Part shown: one piece after another, positions 32,840 through 39,851 of the stretch | How the letters are laid out: every line of letters begins with the position of its first letter | Position numbering within the stretch: position 1 is the stretch's first letter | Assembly (NCBI GenBank): GCA_028825335.1 | Contig: JAPKAI010000014.1 | Location: 1-44,798 of the forward strand | Source: Gammaproteobacteria bacterium | GTDB lineage: Bacteria; Pseudomonadota; Gammaproteobacteria; Pseudomonadales; Pseudohongiellaceae | Direction: 5' to 3' | DNA length: 44,798 nt | The notes under the pieces: model-generated | What the model was told of the DNA's origin: nothing | Databases searched by the model: none | The model's input: only the letters and a program-made list of their open reading frames with translations | Program-made: the position numbers and the translations under genes

Positions 32840-32914
32840 CCATGAGAATTTGAATATTGGTTGTATTTCTAGCGGTTCTCTCAGACCCTAATTGAGGAAA
32901 GACTTCTTACTTCT

Positions 32915-33979
32915 TTATCTCTGTCTGGTGGCAGTGGCGCAAGAAGAAAATATTTCTGTACGAACTTCTACTCCTTTTTCTGCCAGTCGCTCCTGGTCTG
33001 TACATGACACATTCGTATGTCTTAACTCGACAACATCTCCAGCCCCAATGCCTGGGTTTTCAAACAGTGCCTGTATATTGCTTAATTCTGGATTAAAACG
33101 CAGATCAAGCTGCATCAGGTTTGTTAGGCCGCTAAGCGGCGTGATATCAGTTATATCGTTGCCAGTAAGTTCGAGGTACTCGAGCGTAGCGAGCCCCCGC
33201 AAGGGACTGAGATCAGTGAATGAATTTGCTGCTAGTCGCAATTCAATCAGAGAGGTCAAGCCACTCAATGGTGTCAGGTCGCTAATATCCTGAGTATGAA
33301 TATTAAGGTCCACTAGTTTGGTAAGTTTTGCCAACGGGCTTATGTCGGTTACGGCATTGGTAAATAGTAAGCCTGTCGCTCCCATATGGGTTCTGGGGTT
33401 TTGTCCCCCGATGAAGTCGCCGTGACGGTGCATTCGAAGCACTCTCAATTCAGTAAGCTCACTCAGTGGGCTGATATCAGTCAAGGGATTCTCGGCAACA
33501 CGCAACCTGACCAGCTTGGTCAACTCACGTAATGGGCGGATGTCAGAAATCCAATTTGTATGGAGGTTTAGATTCACCAGTTCGGTCAGCCCAGCCAGCG
33601 GGCTAATGTCAGAGAGGCCTCGATTCCTGAGAGCGAGGTCGGTTAATCCTGTGAGATTCTGTATTCCCGAAAGATCATGAAATAGGTGCTCGGGATCTTG
33701 CCATTCAGGAGACCCTGAAACTGATCTTCTCGCACCTGCACCGGAGGCATTCAGCGTCGTCAATTGCGCGGCTTGATAACAGCTGAGGCTATCTTGTGGT
33801 CCCAGTGACAAAGCCTCATGCACTTCTCTCTCTAGAACTGTATCGGCAAAGGTCACAATGGAAGAAGCAGAGTGATCCCGACAGTTGTCAGAGGGCTGCA
33901 GAACTTGCTGGGCCGGAGCCCCGGAACAGAGAACAAGCGAGAGAGCGGTTAAAGACAATCTTATAGTGAGGTTTTTCAT
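32915..33979 (-). CDS. Exported leucine-rich-repeat protein, internalin-like
   Basis: 354 residues with a signal peptide (MKNLTIRLSLTALSLVLCSG, cleavage near APAQ). From about residue 105 to 320 there are some nine 22-residue repeats of the form ISPLxxLTxLxxLxLxxNxL, for example LTGLTDLALRNRGLSDISPL and LSGLTSLIELRLAANSFTDL. One repeat is longer and carries an insert HRHGDFIGGQNPRTHMGATG. The last part has a possible disulfide pair (VSCTDQER ... FSSC). Such proteins bind other proteins at the surface or in the periplasm; the partner is unknown. It is a single gene, convergent with the amidase gene. Confidence 0.85.
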   Translation of the reverse strand: MKNLTIRLSLTALSLVLCSGAPAQQVLQPSDNCRDHSASSIVTFADTVLEREVHEALSLGPQDSLSCYQAAQLTTLNASGAGARRSVSGSPEWQDPEHLFHDLSGIQNLTGLTDLALRNRGLSDISPLAGLTELVNLNLHTNWISDIRPLRELTKLVRLRVAENPLTDISPLSELTELRVLRMHRHGDFIGGQNPRTHMGATGLLFTNAVTDISPLAKLTKLVDLNIHTQDISDLTPLSGLTSLIELRLAANSFTDLSPLRGLATLEYLELTGNDITDITPLSGLTNLMQLDLRFNPELSNIQALFENPGIGAGDVVELRHTNVSCTDQERLAEKGVEVRTEIFSSCATATRQR

Positions 33980-34059
33980 AGTAAGGTTCCTCTGCTAGAC
34001 ACGGTCAAAGTTAACCCCTACAGGAAGACGTGTCTATATATGATGCCCAGTGGGGGAAT

Positions 34060-34157
34060 GGGGCCATCGACACGGAAATTTTGGGTAGGCTGTGCGAAGA
34101 AGTGTGCTATGAGCTTTGTATAAATCCAAGTCAACTTACTCTGGCCCTATTTATTCT
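34060..34157. repeat. Element B copy 0 (partial) with adjacent element A end
   Basis: GCCATCGACACGGAAATTTT (34063 on) matches ACCATCGACACGAGGATTTT of the fuller element B copy at 37022. GAAGAAGTGTGCTATGAG (34096-34113) matches AAGAAGTGTGCTATGA at 37108. The hairpin arms seen in the other copies are absent, so this is a truncated copy. TTACTCTGGCCCTATTTATT (34137 on) beside it resembles the inverted element A terminus. Confidence 0.6.
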
Positions 34158-34167
34158 AAACTGACTT

Positions 34168-35211
34168 CTATCGCAGCACATGTCGCTCTAACATCTGTCG
34201 TCTAACCACCGCGCCGTAAACATTTCCGTTAGCATCCACGCCAACACCCTCGGCACCTGAATGATCGTCCCGCAGTGGTTCCATGTCTTCGATGAATTCA
34301 GTCACTGTGCCATCAATGGCTGAGCCGATGCGAATACCCTTTTTTATTCCCACCAATTCACCCGCACCGGTGTCGGGTCCGGATTCTGAGTCGGCCACAT
34401 AAATTTTGTCATCCGGGGTAATGAAAATACCGCTGGGGCGACCGAACTGTCTCCATTCGTCGATAAAAGCGCCTTCCTGACTAAAAATTTGAATGCGATT
34501 ATTTTCTCTATCGCCAACAAACAAACGCCCTTGAGAATCCATGGCTATGCTATGGGGTTCGCTGAGCTCTCCTTGCCCTGATCCTTTGCTTCCCCATTGG
34601 TTAATGAATCTTCCCTCAGATGAATAATGCACAATTCGATTATTCATACCGCCCCGATGGCTTTCAGCAACGAAGATATCCCCATCTTCAGGATCAATAA
34701 CAACGTCATTCGGGTTGAAGAGTAGCTCAGGCGTTGATCCGCCTCGCGCTTGCAGCCCGAGTGTCAGCAAAACCTCACCGTCGGAGCTGAACTTGAAAAC
34801 CTGATGCCCGATAGTGTCGTTACTGCGCGCGTCCGTGACCCAAAGATTTCCTTCATAGTCCACTGTGGCACCATGGGGAAAAACAAACAGTCCTGCACCA
34901 AAAGAGTCCAGTAAATTTCCGTCATAGTCATATTTGAGAATTGGTGGTTCGCTGCGACCAGCACAGGAGTTGTCAATGCAGCGGTGTATAACATAGATGA
35001 ACTGACCATCGGGAGAAGGTTCCACGGCGGTAACTGCCGCCCATTTCGCGCCTTCGGGTAATTCGCCCCAACTCCGCTGTGTCTCATAGGGCTGAGGCAG
35101 ATCATTGCGCACGCCGTGGGCTGTTCCTGCCGTCGATGGGGATTGAGCGTGGATGTGTATTCCCACATCTGCAATAAATAACAATACCAAGAAGAGACCG
35201 AGAGTTTTCAT
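34168..35211 (-). CDS. Exported NHL-repeat beta-propeller protein
   Basis: 347 residues with a signal peptide (MKTLGLFLVLLFIADVGIHI, cleavage near HAQS). Repeats of the NHL type run through it: FPHGATVDYEGNLWVTDARS, LFNPNDVVIDPEDGDIFVAE, LSEPHSIAMDSQGRLFVGDR and RPSGIFITPDDKIYVADSE, giving a six-bladed propeller. The pattern resembles the lyase domain of peptidylglycine amidating enzymes, but catalytic residues cannot be assigned. A binding or scaffold role is as likely. It is a single gene flanked on both sides by repeat-bearing gaps. Confidence 0.83.
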   Translation of the reverse strand: MKTLGLFLVLLFIADVGIHIHAQSPSTAGTAHGVRNDLPQPYETQRSWGELPEGAKWAAVTAVEPSPDGQFIYVIHRCIDNSCAGRSEPPILKYDYDGNLLDSFGAGLFVFPHGATVDYEGNLWVTDARSNDTIGHQVFKFSSDGEVLLTLGLQARGGSTPELLFNPNDVVIDPEDGDIFVAESHRGGMNNRIVHYSSEGRFINQWGSKGSGQGELSEPHSIAMDSQGRLFVGDRENNRIQIFSQEGAFIDEWRQFGRPSGIFITPDDKIYVADSESGPDTGAGELVGIKKGIRIGSAIDGTVTEFIEDMEPLRDDHSGAEGVGVDANGNVYGAVVRRQMLERHVLR

Positions 35212-35379
35212 AGTAATTTTGAGCAGTTTCCGTAATTCGTTTGAAAGAACCTGACCTGAATAGTGGCTCTGTTCAATATACTATATAAAAAAATTGTGCC
35301 CAAGGACGGAATAATTCGTTAGGAGCGAAATAGCACAGCTTAAAGCTGGCCAAAGGCCGAGTGCATGGATGTACGAGTG

Positions 35380-35547
35380 AATAACCCAAACAGCCTGAGG
35401 GTTATTTGTTCCCTAGGCGCTCGTTGCAAACTGTTGTCGCAGTTAGTCGCACCATCGACACGGGACCTTTCAGTAGAACGGGCACGATCACTGTTTAATA
35501 CCAAGTTGCTAAAAGACGCAAATCCGAGCGTGCCAAGAAGTGTGTTA
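35380..35547. repeat. Element B copy 1 (tRNA-Phe-like hairpin repeat)
   Basis: Within the 607-base gap between the NHL and TAXI genes. The inverted pair AATAACCC/GGGTTATT (35380-35406) is followed by CTCGTTGCAAACTGTTGTCG, then GTCGCACCATCGACACGGG, and 60 bases later CCAAGAAGTGTGTTA. Read on the minus strand it gives CTGAAAGG, CCGTGTCGATGG and AACTG...CAGTT, matching copies at 36923 and 38708. An open frame of 74 codons covers it but is not protein-like. The rest of the gap (35212-35379 and 35548-35751) shows nothing else recognisable. Confidence 0.7.
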
Positions 35548-35751
35548 AAAATACGGGTATTATTCGGTGTTTTTAGCTGTAATTCCTAGTCCAATTGTGG
35601 CCCGTAATTACCCTTTTTATTGGGCTAACGCCTTGAGGTAATGCTTTAGCGTTTCGTTAGCTGCATCCTTGTTGGTTTCATTTTTGCTAACGTCTGCTTC
35701 CGATTGAGCTCATAGCCAATAGCGATGTATAGACATTAAAACTACTGGATA

Positions 35752-35768
35752 TTTACTCTGACCTCCAT
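35752..35768. repeat. Element A end fragment before the TAXI gene
   Basis: TTTACTCTGACCTCCAT is the inverted form of the element A terminus (TTTACTCTGACCCCA at 1069-1083) with one change. It lies about 200 bases from element B copy 1, another case of the two families occurring close together. Confidence 0.5.
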
Positions 35769-35818
35769 AATCGATTGGACCCTAATAGATAGTTGGCTGA
35801 ATAAAGTTGTAATACACG

Positions 35819-36829
35819 CTACCCACCCAATAAGTGTTCAGGGATTTCCACTCCCTTTTCTTTATAGTAGCGGAGTGCCCCTTTATGTAGCGGTACGGGA
35901 ATGCCTTTCAGTGCCGCTTCAATGGCCATCGATTTAGTAGCGCTATGAATCTCCTGTAATGTAGCTAGGTTGTCCCATAACAATTTTGTCATGTTGTAGA
36001 CAACTTCTTCTGAAACGTCATCTCGAACTACAAAAACATTGGAACTGTAGGCCGTTGTGACTGGCTTTTCCTGGCGCGGATACGTCCCCGGCTGCAATTC
36101 ATAGAAATCCCACAATGGAAAATTTCGATTGATAGCTGTCATTTCATCTTCGGAAAACGCTAGGATGGTCATGCGCTCGCCTAGTAGTGCGTAAGCACGA
36201 GCTATGGCCGTTACTGGTGGGCCTGCGGGCACATTCATGCCGACAATATTGCCGTCTTGCAGGGCGTTGGTAGACGGGCCGTAGCCCAAGTAAGCAATAG
36301 ACAGATCCTCAGTGTAATCGATTCCAAGCGCATCGAAAATGTAGAGGCCGGTGTGCTCGGCTCCTGAATTGCGCATACCGATGGAATACCGTTCGCCTTC
36401 CAGTTTCGCAAGATCGGAAACAGTACCATCGATAACTAAATCGGAACGTAGTACGAAGTGTTCCACATTGGGCCACATCGCGCTGATGCTGCGAATATGG
36501 GGTTGGGGAGTGCTAATTGGCCCAACGCCATCGTGGGCCCAAGCTGCAAAGATGCCCAGTATCAGTCCAAACTGCGCCTGATTATCCCGCAGTAGTTTGA
36601 TGTTTTCCATCGAGCCAGCTGAACTTATTGCGGTCAATGAAAAACTTTCCTCGCCCTTTGCTGAAACTAAAGTCGAAAGGGCAACCCCCACCGGGTAAAA
36701 CGTTCCGCCAGTTGTGCCCGTTGTCAGCACGTAAGTGCGCTGGTCATCCGCTCCATCGGAACAGGCGCTGAGAAGGCAGGCTAGCAGTACACCAACGGTT
36801 GAGAATCGCGACAAGGAGTCCTCCCACAA
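35819..36829 (-). CDS. TAXI-family TRAP solute-binding lipoprotein
   Basis: Extracytoplasmic solute receptor of 336 residues. The N-terminus has a lipobox LLSAC (C23), so it is probably membrane-anchored. LTTGTTGGTFYPVGVALSTL is the diagnostic TAXI motif, followed by SAGSMENIKLLRDNQAQFGL and SIGMRNSGAEHTGLYIFDAL. TAXI receptors deliver carboxylates such as glutamate or 2-oxoglutarate to a fused TRAP permease; no permease gene is present in the window, so this is an orphan here. It is bordered on both sides by repeat elements. Confidence 0.88.
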   Translation of the reverse strand: MWEDSLSRFSTVGVLLACLLSACSDGADDQRTYVLTTGTTGGTFYPVGVALSTLVSAKGEESFSLTAISSAGSMENIKLLRDNQAQFGLILGIFAAWAHDGVGPISTPQPHIRSISAMWPNVEHFVLRSDLVIDGTVSDLAKLEGERYSIGMRNSGAEHTGLYIFDALGIDYTEDLSIAYLGYGPSTNALQDGNIVGMNVPAGPPVTAIARAYALLGERMTILAFSEDEMTAINRNFPLWDFYELQPGTYPRQEKPVTTAYSSNVFVVRDDVSEEVVYNMTKLLWDNLATLQEIHSATKSMAIEAALKGIPVPLHKGALRYYKEKGVEIPEHLLGG

Positions 36830-36845
36830 TATATTTCGGTTCTAT

Positions 36846-37172
36846 AATAATTGGGTGTCAGAGTAAAAGTACAGGAATCAATGGGGTCAGAGTACTTTGA
36901 TCGAGTGTCAAATCAAAAAATAGCGGTTCGGGGCGGAAGAATTCAAACAGGCTTAGGCCGGTTTGTCCCCTACGGGCTTCGCGCTTTCGCGCTCGTTGTA
37001 AACTGCTTCGCAGTTAGTCGAACCATCGACACGAGGATTTTCAGCAGACTGCTTCAACAAATTTATAATAAAATCAATAAGTTAAAAATCCGTAAACAGA
37101 GTGTGCTAAGAAGTGTGCTATGAATTTCTAGTAAATGTACCCTAAAACTACTGTAGCTTTATTCTGCCCCTT
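36846..37172. repeat. Composite repeat: element A ends around element B copy 2
   Basis: Left side has two element A termini, GGGTGTCAGAGTAAAAGT (36853 on) and ATGGGGTCAGAGTACTTTGA (36881 on). Element B follows: CGGGGCGGAAGAATTCAAAC, AGGCTTAGGCC, GCGCTTTCGCGC, AACTGCTTCGCAGTT, and GTCGAACCATCGACACGAGG with TTTTCAGCAG. The second conserved block AAGAAGTGTGCTATGA lies at 37108-37123, and the right edge is GCTTTATTCTGCCCCTT (37156-37172). On the minus strand, CTGAAAATCC, CGTGTCGATGG and TTCGA appear in the order of a tRNA-Phe 3' half. No convincing gene lies in 36830-37246. Confidence 0.7.
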
Positions 37173-37246
37173 GATTAACCAACCCTCCGAAACCCCTTGC
37201 TGCTATAATGAGCGCTGCTCCCTCTACGACAATCTACCGAGCGTCT

Positions 37247-38473
37247 ATGCCATTTTTAAAACTTGGATTATGTAATCCTATTGTACAAGCGATTGAAGAA
37301 TTGGGTTATACAACTCCTACCCCGATTCAGAAACAAGCCATCCCCATAATTATTTCTGGTAAAGACCTCATTGCCACCGCTCAAACGGGGACAGGTAAAA
37401 CCGCCGCGTTTGTCCTACCGCTATTAACCTTATTTAACAAAGAGCGTTGCTTGCGAGGTAAACGTATACGCGCCCTTATCCTGACTCCTACACGGGAATT
37501 AGCGGTGCAGGTTGCTGCGAATATTGCTGAGTACAGCAGGTATTTAAACCTAAGTTCTATGGCTGTTTATGGCGGTGTTGATAGCGAACCACAACAGCAG
37601 CGTTTAATTAAAGGCATTGATATTTTAGTAGCCACTCCGGGCAGATTGCTGGATTTGGCTCATCAGCGTGCGCTGCATTTTGATGAGCTTGAAGTGCTGG
37701 TGTTAGATGAAGCAGACCGTATGGTGGATATGGATTTTGGTGATGATATCAAGAAAATCATTGAGCGCTTACCTGCAGACCGTCAAAACCTATTGTTCTC
37801 GGCTACCGTGAACAATGGCGTTCGCATCTTTGCCGATTATTTTTCAGCCAGCAAAATGGGTCGGCCCGCTGTTGAGATATCGATTTCACCAAAAGCCACA
37901 ACGGCACCCAATATTTACCAGTGGTTAATCACCATAGATAAAGACACAAAGTCTGCCTTGCTGAGTCATTTAATTAACGAGCAGAAGTGGGATCAGGCGT
38001 TAATTTTTATCGAGAAGAAACACTCTGCTGCCAAACTGGTGGCTCAACTTGCAAAACGCGGTATTGAAGCAGATGCCATTCACGGTGATAAAAGCCAGGC
38101 AATGCGTGAAAAGATTTTAGCTGATTTTAAGTCTGGAAAACTAAAATACTTAATTGCCACAGGCGTTGCCGCCCGCGGTATAGATATTGGTGAGCTGAGT
38201 CGCGTTGTTAATTATGACCTGCCCTTTAAACCTGAAGAATACATTCACCGTATTGGCCGAACGGGTCGTGCTGGCGCTTCAGGAGAAGCCATATCGTTTG
38301 TGGCGATGGGCGATTTTAAAAATTTATGCGCCATTGAAAGCCGTTTAAACCATATCATCAACCGGAAAGAGATCGAAGGCTTTCCGGTTAGAAAAGTCGT
38401 TCCCGTTTCAATTTTAAATTATGTTCGCAAGAGCAAGAGCAAGAGCAAGAGCAAGAGCAAGAGCAAGCGGTAG
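37247..38473 (+). CDS. rhlE: DEAD-box RNA helicase, RhlE type
   Basis: ATP-dependent RNA helicase of 408 residues acting in RNA decay and ribosome maturation. Motifs in order: Q motif GYTTPTPIQKQAI, motif I AQTGTGKT, Ia PTRELAVQ, Ib TPGRLLD, II VLDEAD, III SAT, IV LIFIEKKHS, V ATGVAARGID and VI HRIGRTGRAG. MPFLKLGL at 37247 matches the usual RhlE opening. An ATG at 37208 would add 13 residues but overlaps TATAAT (37204-37209), which may be the -10 box. The C-terminus is a run of Lys-Ser pairs coded by a hexanucleotide repeat instead of the usual basic tail. Confidence 0.9.
   Translation: MPFLKLGLCNPIVQAIEELGYTTPTPIQKQAIPIIISGKDLIATAQTGTGKTAAFVLPLLTLFNKERCLRGKRIRALILTPTRELAVQVAANIAEYSRYLNLSSMAVYGGVDSEPQQQRLIKGIDILVATPGRLLDLAHQRALHFDELEVLVLDEADRMVDMDFGDDIKKIIERLPADRQNLLFSATVNNGVRIFADYFSASKMGRPAVEISISPKATTAPNIYQWLITIDKDTKSALLSHLINEQKWDQALIFIEKKHSAAKLVAQLAKRGIEADAIHGDKSQAMREKILADFKSGKLKYLIATGVAARGIDIGELSRVVNYDLPFKPEEYIHRIGRTGRAGASGEAISFVAMGDFKNLCAIESRLNHIINRKEIEGFPVRKVVPVSILNYVRKSKSKSKSKSKSKR
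38427..38467 (+). repeat. Hexanucleotide repeat GCAAGA in the 3' end of rhlE
   Basis: Six perfect tandem GCAAGA units and a partial seventh encode alternating Lys-Ser pairs just before the stop. Because the unit is six bases, slippage changes the tail length without shifting the frame. Confidence 0.93.
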
Positions 38474-38496
38474 CGGCAACTCAAACCAGTAGCGTG

Positions 38497-38576
38497 TTAC
38501 TTCTTCTCTTCTATTTTAGCTTTTAAGTCGGCAAACGGTTTAAAGGTTGCGGCTTTAACTTCAGTGTCTGTGGGGA
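38497..38576 (-). pseudogene. Possible 3' remnant of an HU-family DNA-binding protein gene
   Basis: On the minus strand a short frame reads IPTDTEVKAATFKPFADLKA then KIEEKK and stops at 38497. The pattern IP..T.VK..FKP...LK resembles the last 25 residues of HU/IHF-like proteins. A TGA lies directly upstream in frame, and no body of the gene is present. I take it as a decayed fragment. The rest of the 454-base gap (38474-38927) carries an inverted pair around 38634-38668 and element B copy 3. Confidence 0.35.
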
Positions 38577-38707
38577 TGGTTCATTACATTAATACCCTTC
38601 AATGGTGTGCGCTAAAAGGAACTACTGGGAACACTCACAACTTAACTGCTTAACAATTTAAGGTTGTGAAAAGTGTAGCGGTGAGACAGGCAATTAGGAG
38701 TTGACGA

Positions 38708-38840
38708 CTCGGGACGGAAGAATCCAAACAGGCTTAGGCCTGTTTGTCCCCTGAGGGGTTCGCGCTGGTGCGCTCGTTGCAAATTGCTGGCGCAATTAGT
38801 CGAACCATCGATACGAGGATTTTTAGTCCTCTGCTCCAGC
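38708..38840. repeat. Element B copy 3 (best-preserved hairpin copy)
   Basis: Plus-strand blocks: CGGGACGGAAGAATCCAAAC, CAAACAGGC-TTAG-GCCTGTTTG (9-bp stem), CCCC-TGA-GGGG, GCGC-TGGT-GCGC, AATTGC-TGGC-GCAATT, GTCGAACCATCGATACGAGG and TTTTTAGTCCTCTGCTCC. On the minus strand the last part reads GAGCAG, then GAGGA-CTAAAAA-TCCTC, CGTATC and TGGTTCGA, the order of a tRNA-Phe 3' half up to the T loop. Compared with copy 2, the stem AACTGC/GCAGTT has become AATTGC/GCAATT, a paired change that keeps the hairpin. Confidence 0.75.
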
Positions 38841-38927
38841 ACTATTTGGAAAAGCTCTCCTAACCGATAACAAACCTAAATGCCCTTCTATTTTCATTGG
38901 CTGGCAATGCAACAAAACTTAGGAAAG

Positions 38928-39434
38928 TTACTTGCTGACCTGTGCTGCTAGCACCTTGAGTCGTTCCGACCACTGCTGCTTTATCTCGTCGCCATAGAGT
39001 TCTAGGGTTTGGTCAATCTGCATCGTCAATCTGAGTTTCGTTTTCCCATCTTGAGTGTCGAGGCTTAAGTTGATCTTGCTCTTGTGAGAATTCTTCTTCG
39101 CAGCCTCGCGCCAGGTAAAACTCAGCCGTTTCGGCCTATCTATTTTTAAGTATTCGCCATCTTGCAAGAATTCCTTGCCATTGCGGGTGATGTGATAGCT
39201 ATAGGATCCGCCTGGGCGAACTTCGTTCTGTAGGTCGACTACTTTCTCATTACCAATATGACCGCCGAACATCCAGCTGCCTACAAAGGTAGGTATCAGC
39301 CAGCGATCGAAGATTTTTTCTGCAGGTGCAGCTACAGTTCTGCTTAGTGAGACACTAAACGTCTTGAATTTCGCCCCAGGCAATTCTTCTGCGGCGCTAT
39401 CGTCTTCAAACATGGAAAGCTGGTCGATGCTCAT
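38928..39434 (-). CDS. SRPBCC/AHSA1-domain protein
   Basis: Protein of 168 residues with an AHSA1-like START/SRPBCC fold and no signal peptide. From about residue 28: FKTFSVSLSRTVAAPAEKIF, DRWLIPTFVGSWMFG, NEVRPGGSYSYHITRNGKEF and YLKIDRPKRLSFTWRE. Proteins of this type bind hydrophobic ligands or act as chaperone cofactors; the function here is unknown. The open frame extends upstream into the cytochrome gene, but ATG 39434 starts seven bases after that gene's stop and is more likely. It is the last gene of the sulfite dehydrogenase cluster. Confidence 0.8.
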   Translation of the reverse strand: MSIDQLSMFEDDSAAEELPGAKFKTFSVSLSRTVAAPAEKIFDRWLIPTFVGSWMFGGHIGNEKVVDLQNEVRPGGSYSYHITRNGKEFLQDGEYLKIDRPKRLSFTWREAAKKNSHKSKINLSLDTQDGKTKLRLTMQIDQTLELYGDEIKQQWSERLKVLAAQVSK

Positions 39435-39441
39435 TGGTTGG

Positions 39442-39813
39442 CTACAAGTTAGAGTTGGATGGCATGAGATGCATGGGCAGCGCTTGACGGCGAGAAGCAG
39501 TCTTTTGCCCATAGTTCGATGTTAGATAATCGAGGATCGAGCCTTCGACTTCGAGGTCAAGCTCGCCAAGTCCTTGCGAACTCTGCATCCATTCGATGCG
39601 ACTCTTCCAGACGTCTCGGTTGCCTGAATTCTGAACGATGATTAGGCTTGAGTGGCATTCGGTGCAATTGTCGCGGACTAACTCCCAGCCTTCTTCTTGA
39701 ACCAATTCGCCTGCCGCCACACTTTCCTGCGCAGTTGAGCTTGCAGTCGTAAACAGTAGTGGCAGTGACAACGTGATCAAAGTCAGCCAGATTAATTTCA
39801 TTCTATTCGTCAT
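39442..39813 (-). CDS. Monohaem c-type cytochrome, SorB-like
   Basis: Periplasmic cytochrome of 123 residues with a signal peptide (MKLIWLTLITLSLPLLFTTA region, cleavage near STAQ). One haem motif, CTECH (C50, C53, H54), is present, and late methionines (ALPMHLMPS) can supply the distal ligand. Placed 38 bases downstream of a SorA-like gene, it most likely takes electrons from the molybdenum subunit, as SorB does. ATG 39813 was chosen because the frame upstream only offers a TTG. The body between the motif and the C-terminus is short but within the range of such cytochromes. Confidence 0.82.
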   Translation of the reverse strand: MTNRMKLIWLTLITLSLPLLFTTASSTAQESVAAGELVQEEGWELVRDNCTECHSSLIIVQNSGNRDVWKSRIEWMQSSQGLGELDLEVEGSILDYLTSNYGQKTASRRQALPMHLMPSNSNL

Positions 39814-39851
39814 GATTTCTAATTCCAATAGCGCAAATCGATGAGCCTAAA

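Follow-up and report, generated by a model that had tools for sequence, protein, structure and literature searches.

Intergenic tRNA-Phe-like repeats in a Pseudohongiellaceae genome as probable attachment sites of small integrative cassettes

A contig of the family Pseudohongiellaceae (Gammaproteobacteria; GenBank assembly GCA_028825335.1, contig JAPKAI010000014.1; 44,798 nucleotides, all of which are referred to here as the window) carries between its genes a repeat that resembles the 3′ half of tRNA-Phe and runs into a series of hairpins. This raises the question of what the repeat is and how several copies came to lie one behind the other. An initial annotation had offered two answers, a tRNA-derived dispersed repeat or the decayed attachment sites of an element that targets tRNA-Phe. 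Comparison with related genomes favours the second, and the repeats are very probably the attachment sites at which site-specific recombination has lined up small integrative cassettes behind tRNA-Phe. Judged from the sequences, this interpretation is carried by the geometry of the site, the way sites are oriented and placed behind tRNA-Phe in the counted genomes, an integrase gene next to tRNA-Phe with matching arms, shared cassettes that end at sites, and conserved hairpins. Handles with G, C and L denote genomes, contigs and sequence stretches, respectively.

Four copies lie on the minus strand at about 34.06, 35.4, 37.0 and 38.8 kb, and their blocks are ordered alike in all of them, as had been described. 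They occupy the gaps between five neighbouring genes, one repeat in each gap. Preservation is good at 36926-37120 and 38708-38837, the copy at 35328-35547 is degenerate and that at 34060-34109 is a remnant. Likeness to tRNA was scored by local alignment with the tRNA-Phe of the same genome (L005 1480-1555), the best score of each copy being set against 1000 dinucleotide shuffles. The score is 59 for 38708-38840 (shuffle maximum 25), 49 for 36923-37123 (maximum 22) and 26 for 35380-35547 (maximum 21), with tRNA positions 22-58, 32-58 and 31-58 aligned, respectively. The claimed resemblance to the 3′ half of tRNA-Phe is therefore sound for three copies and weak, taken alone, for the partial one (34060-34113), whose score of 18 was matched by 12 of the 1000 shuffles. 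The anticodon-type loop reads CTGAAAA at 37.0 kb and CTAAAAA at 38.8 kb, as annotated, and CTGAAAG at 35.4 kb. Three copies begin about 57 nt ahead of the tRNA half, at a tandem arm (37099-37120, 35526-35547, 34088-34109), which widens the original description. The arms at 34088-34109 and 35526-35547 are both identical to the canonical arm at 19 of 22 positions, and since the tRNA part of the 34.06-kb copy is weak alone, this copy is better recognised by its arm. ARAGORN reported no tRNA in the window, an Rfam scan of the window at gathering score gave no match, and promoter and terminator counts between 33.9 and 39.6 kb were not above those of shuffles. A second class of arm, considered beside the 38.8-kb copy, was dropped because the sequence proved to be where the AHSA1 gene in a shared cassette ends.

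Since the window copies are worn, the anatomy of the full site was taken from relatives. The 130-nt repeat, searched as DNA, matches 82 of 117 related genomes, at least 21 of them with more than the tRNA part among the matches listed. The full site consists of a tandem arm (AGCACACTTCTTAGCACACTC) and, 75 nt from the arm start, a core formed by the tRNA-Phe 3′ half from the anticodon loop onward. In aligned sites the tandem arm TAGCACACTTCTTAGCACACTC is followed by a conserved stretch up to GAATCGGTCACGCAGTCT and then by ACTGAAAATCCTCGTGTCGGTGGTTCGA, which corresponds to tRNA-Phe from the anticodon arm to the T loop. A search seeded with the window's three arms and run on the window, L004, L005 and L035-L070 yielded 43 arms, the seeds included. 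A recognisable core accompanies 38 of them, and the other five are coreless or reach the contig end; measured from the start of the arm, the core lies 75 nt away at 32 sites, 73-76 nt at five and 68 nt at one that is cut by a contig end. By script, ten arms belong to sites with a full tRNA 3′ end, 25 to sites cut at the T loop, three to sites with an insert in the anticodon stem and five to the coreless or contig-end class, at least one of the "cut" sites (L049) being a mutated full end when read by eye. A match to the hairpin train lies within 420 nt of 27 of the 43 arms. An 89-nt site query from a relative finds window positions 37032-37120 (E=1.4e-16). The word "decayed" in the initial annotation suits the window copies and not those of the relatives, whose left side is well conserved. 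The insert at some sites (L042, L043, L049) is a hairpin-rich sequence of about 75 nt within the anticodon stem of the tRNA half; three such sites belong to G029 by the script classes and one more, read by eye, to G013.

A query made of the 89-nt left side of the site (the P arm) matches 45 of 146 genomes, of which one is that of the window, 42 belong to the same genus and two to the same family, some of the matching pieces being shorter than 60 nt, and gives no match in the genomes of other families in this set. The exact 20-nt arm occurs in 32 named stretches titled as metagenome-assembled genomes (MAGs) of Proteobacteria, Gammaproteobacteria, Pseudomonadales or Pseudohongiella. The same arm had no match in viral contigs, and none of 18 phage and 124 plasmid records covers 80% of a full site (L104), the matches listed falling on the tRNA part.

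On contigs carrying tRNA-Phe, all 23 site rows within 60 kb lie downstream of that gene and on its strand in the five genomes counted, which are not a census (8/8 in G025, 5/5 in G012, 3/3 in G029:C37, 4/4 in G054:C7, where two of the rows are probably one site, and 3/3 in G040:C54). Single rows in G035, G051 and G128 agree with this placement. In the five counted genomes an intact tRNA-Phe is followed by displaced fragments, and sites are spaced 1-10 kb apart with mostly ordinary genes in between. G128, which belongs to another genus, shows arm, core and hairpins about 60 nt behind tRNA-Phe, a site with almost no cargo. The window's genome carries further copies on contig C74, and its true tRNA-Phe is on C193, which stops one base past the CCA of the gene; because tRNA-Phe sits on this other contig, the window array is not itself linked to it.

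This distribution bears on the idea of a dispersed repeat, a tRNA-derived sequence comparable to short interspersed nuclear elements or miniature inverted-repeat transposable elements, which would copy itself into intergenic regions and leave ordinary chromosomal genes in between. Several similar intergenic copies, their hairpins and their presence on more than one contig would suit it. However, in G025, a single contig of 6.59 Mb, the strong sites are limited to a single run behind tRNA-Phe, all on one strand, and a single second cluster (weak rows elsewhere, chiefly of the tRNA part, were left out of the counts), the unit holds arms of the integrase type, and homology between genomes breaks near sites above chance, as described below. 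This first answer of the initial annotation thus appears extremely improbable.

The intervals between sites are read as cassettes. Each interval between window sites holds one gene (NHL-repeat, NMT1/TAXI-type, DEAD-box), with genes for a leucine-rich-repeat (LRR) and an AHSA1-domain protein at the ends. Counterparts of the DEAD-box cassette with 89.9-93.4% nucleotide identity are present in G013, G029, G035, G042 and G050, and a 90% identical protein is found in G017. In all five genomes with a site at that end (G000, G017, G029, G035, G050), the first ATG of the DEAD-box frame lies 86-87 nt from the arm; in G042 the relevant end falls outside the stretch. The next stretch, 250-2000 nt from the arm, gives no tblastx match at 1e-5 among the five and three blastn pieces of 51-67 nt. 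The LRR protein is 88-91% identical in array stretches of G127 and G017 and 79-89% identical, in two pieces, in G012; proteins 42-44% identical to the NHL protein occur in stretches of G012 and G051, and the NMT1/TAXI protein has no match of at least 40% in the relatives' stretches examined. The AHSA1 gene ends at a site in G029 and G035 too. It precedes the DEAD-box gene in the window and G035, and a match to its end does so in G050. Overall, cassettes are gained or lost between genomes at the same locus, the comparison being one between species and not strains.

This impression was quantified with homology blocks of at least 300 nt shared between genomes, whose 292 ends were compared with 1000 rotations; the stretches had been selected for containing sites, and blocks ending at tRNA-Phe itself were counted. 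Within 100 bp of a site lie 85 of the 292 ends (rotations: mean 23.8, maximum 46), and within 250 bp 141 (mean 47.3, maximum 76). Another possibility is that several large islands or prophages were inserted serially at tRNA-Phe and then eroded, with no mobility of cassettes. The many degenerate sites, those of the window included, the rarity of integrases and the AHSA1-DEAD-box order kept in G035 are in its favour, as is the fact that tRNA-Phe is a usual island target. The same short cassettes nevertheless recur with the same ends beside different neighbours in other species, and arm and core are well conserved in relatives, which makes erosion of large islands distinctly unlikely.

A candidate enzyme for the cassettes is encoded in G013, where behind a site come another tandem arm and then the gene of a 453-aa tyrosine recombinase belonging to the PHROGs integrase family phrog_1 (E=2e-34). 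Homologues are present in 9 of the 146 genomes. In G020 (97% identical), G039 (a frame with two stops) and G009 the integrase gene starts just behind an intact tRNA-Phe, and a tandem GCACAC or GCATAC arm can be read by eye between the two; such an arm is also present in G013, and G055 and G119 are remnants with such an arm (by eye). Arms flank the core on both sides, as P′ arms at integrase loci (by eye) and as P arms at array sites. In G062 a distant homologue lies behind a sequence read by eye as tRNA-Gln and accompanied by other repeats, which fits arms that are specific to the integrase. Relatives therefore display what is expected of a tRNA-integrative element, with an intact tRNA and displaced 3′ fragments, an adjacent tyrosine integrase and predicted two-sided arms. 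PF00589 at E<=1e-3 has no match in the array stretches read in G012, G025, G029:C3/C9/C37, G040:C54 and G054:C7, homologues of the G013 integrase are likewise absent from those array stretches of G012, G025, G029, G040:C54 and G054:C7, and a search of phage records for the integrase found none. As a separate observation, a tyrosine recombinase about 400-440 aa long that matches PF00589 weakly is present in 17 of 17 genomes (e.g. L064, L065), and the single-contig genomes G056 and G063 gave no strong XerC/XerD-like match, which reflects either replacement of Xer or a limit of the search.

On these grounds a mechanism can be proposed. A phrog_1-type tyrosine integrase supplied by a few autonomous members is predicted to bind the tandem GCACAC arms flanking the core, and strand exchange would take place at the anticodon loop of tRNA-Phe, as suggested by the start of tRNA identity at ACTGAAAATCC and by the known behaviour of such integrases. 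Integration would give the gene a new tRNA 3′ half and displace the old one, and a cassette would terminate in the arm together with a displaced 3′ half. Successive insertions would leave an array of same-strand sites with cargo in between. The internal tRNA half would no longer be needed, and it is often cut at the T loop. Most cassettes, having no integrase, would rely on an enzyme acting in trans or on homologous recombination between sites, and the system may still be active. The hairpin train would have come in with the 3′ flank of the tRNA as a separate tRNA-linked element.

Several observations weigh against this interpretation. The window's genome has no integrase homologue at E<=1e-10, and since integrases occur in few arrays, we infer the movement of most cassettes. 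The G013 integrase is weak in Pfam (20.4 bits versus a cut-off of 27.1), and the spacing between GCACAC units is 6 nt in P arms versus 5 nt in P′ arms. No excised or circular form is visible in the sequences analysed, and homologous recombination between sites could move cassettes as well. The 38.8-kb copy (38708-38837) has no tandem arm, its left neighbour being the end of the AHSA1 gene; the DEAD-box gene of G013:C5 lies about 2.8 kb from the nearest site; and G025 has a second same-strand cluster of sites (4.51-4.53 Mb) in a stretch that contains no tRNA gene. The block ends falling inside a site number 19 (rotations: mean 7.2, maximum 20), which is not beyond every rotation. Finally, the order of cassettes seems partly inherited, because the window and G035 both have AHSA1 next to DEAD-box. 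Integrative cassettes at tRNA-Phe are still preferred, and the arm and core geometry, the arrays behind tRNA-Phe and the relatives' integrase with the same kind of arm bear out the attachment sites of the initial annotation. The further copies in the genome itself and in relatives, the tRNA-Phe alignment of three copies above shuffles and the paired stem changes to which that annotation looked for its check were all found.

The hairpins require separate consideration. They had been taken as one unit with the tRNA part, a view that has to be given up: because the same train follows other tRNA genes in other families, they form a part distinct from the tRNA core. A 37-nt pattern for the start of the train, searched in 390 genomes of the order, occurs in six, namely the window's genome, G029 and four from other families, where it stands behind tRNA-Arg genes in two and behind tRNA-Val and tRNA-Phe genes in the others. 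One of these four has weaker matches behind tRNA-Ser and another tRNA-Arg, and one copy follows tRNA-Leu in the window's genus. The train starts with GGTTCGA, which is T-loop-like, and in five of eight loci the sequence after it best matches the 3′ end of the locus's own tRNA, for tRNA-Arg of G089 by just 20 versus 19; in G040 Leu, G279 Arg and G355 Phe the best match is not to the own tRNA. The clearest case is tRNA-Val, with tRNA 3′ end and terminator on both sides of the train. An inverted copy in front matches the own tRNA clearly in Phe (G029) and Ser only (Leu, 24 versus 22). Read in this way from sequence, the hairpin train is a tRNA-tail element of its own, which may have entered the sites along with the tRNA-Phe flank. 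Rfam and open-access literature searches gave it no name, and the 37.0-kb hairpins were not found in plasmids. A longer train of about ten back-to-back hairpins starting in the T loop was seen by eye at L044 3503-3740, L042 3299-3640 and L050. In addition, the terminator of tRNA-Phe forms a long palindrome, and its downstream arm repeats the tRNA 3′ end in inverted orientation (e.g. L041 6807-6888, minus strand), as if copied by fold-back.

The fold of the train is conserved. Pairs were counted over 33 copies, 32 from a first set of 51 and one from another family; large-gap copies and the 35.4-kb copy of the window were excluded, and the counted sequences themselves supplied the structure. In four hairpins standard pairs fill 97.4% of 692 cells (shuffled mean 92.1, reached by 0 of 500 shuffles), and changes on both sides occur in 39 cells (mean 11.0, 0 of 500), which confirms the paired changes first noticed between the window copies. 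Five pairs have both sides changed (reached by 28/500) and 13 further pair types occur (107/500). Sliding the partner columns by 1-3 lowers the paired cells to 27-45%. RNAalifold found almost no structure in the first, mixed 51-copy set, and among single copies the one at 38.8 kb folds better than shuffles (z −4.1 and −3.8) and the other two do not (z about −0.8). Because structure and counts both come from the same related and selected copies, the result shows constraint on the fold and not a role. The paired changes and the placement just behind tRNA genes of several kinds would accord with a functional RNA, or a terminator or insulator module of the tRNA 3′ flank, transcribed from tRNA-Phe. 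However, in the native loci that were read a terminator-like palindrome separates the tRNA from the hairpins, no tRNA promoter precedes the array copies, and besides the gathering-score scan of the window an Rfam search at E<=1 of five relatives' loci gave, tRNA aside, sub-threshold matches only; such a module is accordingly considered unlikely.

Arrays of cassettes without an integrase, separated by hairpin-bearing sites, also recall a sedentary integron or an orphan attC array, in which the train would be an attC-like site and a host IntI would shuffle the cassettes. Indeed, six array genomes encode tyrosine recombinases of 320-330 aa whose long PF00589 match is IntI-like (L058 7494-8459 in G012:C2 and the PF00589 rows of G025, G029, G040, G042 and G054). 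These genes lie outside the array stretches, and the stretches read around them in the six genomes hold no hairpin train, although no dedicated attC model was used. Moreover, 16 of the 43 arms have no train within 420 nt (five of the 16 being coreless or at contig ends), trains stand behind unrelated tRNA genes in other families, and what is conserved is the arm with the tRNA core, as in a tRNA island. An integron of this kind is thus very improbable.

Among known systems, the arrangement inferred here for the integrative cassettes would work like the tandem accretion of non-autonomous tRNA-island cassettes, as in an additive flexible genomic island (fGI). In Streptococcus, accretion of cis-mobilizable elements with integrative and conjugative elements produces tandem stacks, at one target, of integrase-less elements bounded by attachment sites. 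These features are shared, whereas here the cassettes are of about 1-10 kb, lie at tRNA-Phe and form runs of up to eight site rows (G025). Alteromonas fGI1 is described as an additive flexible island with cassettes inserted at a conserved tRNA (PMC4119200), and in "Ca. Methylopumilus" fGI-2 repeats of the tRNA-Lys end, its last 20 bp, mark the island (PMC10872708). The present arrays share with these islands a tRNA as cassette target and recurring tRNA-end repeats (PMC4119200, PMC10872708); they differ in that each site also has an arm, conserved and set at a fixed distance, and in many cases a hairpin train, and in the matching integrase proposed here. Tycheposons of Prochlorococcus are described as tRNA-bordered elements of 4-200 kb with a tyrosine recombinase and cargo (PMC10872708), a combination also met here in marine bacteria; that description sets them apart from the present cassettes, which are small and mostly without recombinase. 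Clusters of attC sites lacking integron-integrases (CALINs) are described as arrays of small cassettes without integrase (PMC11389934). As in integrons and CALINs, small cargo cassettes with one site each are arrayed here, often with the integrase absent, whereas the site is a tRNA core with arms and not attC, the anchor is tRNA-Phe and hairpins are not constant. The description of Islander states that islands split a tRNA gene and restore it (PMC4383910). To known islands the present data add a conserved arm-core site, a candidate integrase, sharing of cassettes across species of the genus, and the hairpin train; no open-access paper was found on such an array in Pseudohongiella.

A bolder and rather doubtful proposal sees here an analogue of the integron that is anchored at a tRNA. 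Rare integrase bearers would shuffle in trans a pool of small cassettes, each with one arm-core site, across the whole genus, joined by a mobile hairpin train that inserts into T loops, with copies of tRNA 3′ ends around it, and is now a working part of many sites. Arrays of short cassettes, most of them lacking an integrase and each having one conserved site, spread over many species of one genus, would show that tRNA islands are able to store genes in the manner of an integron in marine bacteria represented here by MAGs alone. The definition of the site by arm, 75 nt and anticodon-loop core lets cassette borders be read from sequence, the candidate integrase makes mobilisation in trans testable, and the train, which follows tRNA genes of five kinds, is a subject of study in its own right.

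Table 1. Sites and cassettes in the window (positions of the whole stretch).
Feature	Position	Strand	Gene	Basis
LRR protein cassette, left border not seen	32909..34059		32915-33979 (-)	Pfam
Decayed site, arm 34088-34109 and core remnant	34060..34109	-		arm 19/22; tRNA part not beyond chance alone
NHL-repeat protein cassette	34110..35379		34168-35211 (-)	Pfam
Shortened hairpin train, extra small hairpins at far end (by eye)	35328..35453	-		
Degenerate core	35446..35477	-		score 26 vs shuffle maximum 21
Arm-type site	35526..35547	-		19/22 identity to canonical arm
NMT1/TAXI-type protein cassette	35548..36922		35819-36829 (-)	Pfam NMT1_3
Hairpin train (HB)	36926..37024	-		33-copy alignment and pair counts
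Core, tRNA-Phe 3′ half, anticodon stem to T loop, cut at GGTTCGA	37018..37055	-		score 49 vs shuffle maximum 22
P arm of best preserved site, tandem GCACAC repeat, arm-type	37099..37120	-		same arm at relatives' sites; core 75 nt from arm start
DEAD-box helicase cassette	37121..38707		37208-38473 (+)	Pfam
Hairpin train (HB)	38708..38806	-		pair counts; fold z −3.8 to −4.1
Core, tRNA-Phe 3′ half cut at T loop, without tandem arm	38800..38837	-		score 59 vs shuffle maximum 25
End of AHSA1-domain cassette, right border not seen	38838..39851		38928-39512 (-)	Pfam

Two minor repeats were also observed in this part of the window. Repeats of the TACTCTGACCCC / GGGGTCAGAGTA type lie near the sites at 34128-34155, 35748-35790 and 36848-36905 and resemble repetitive extragenic palindromic sequences of Y1 transposases. 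The 3′ end of the DEAD-box gene contains a short tandem DNA repeat of AAGAGC at 38430-38470.

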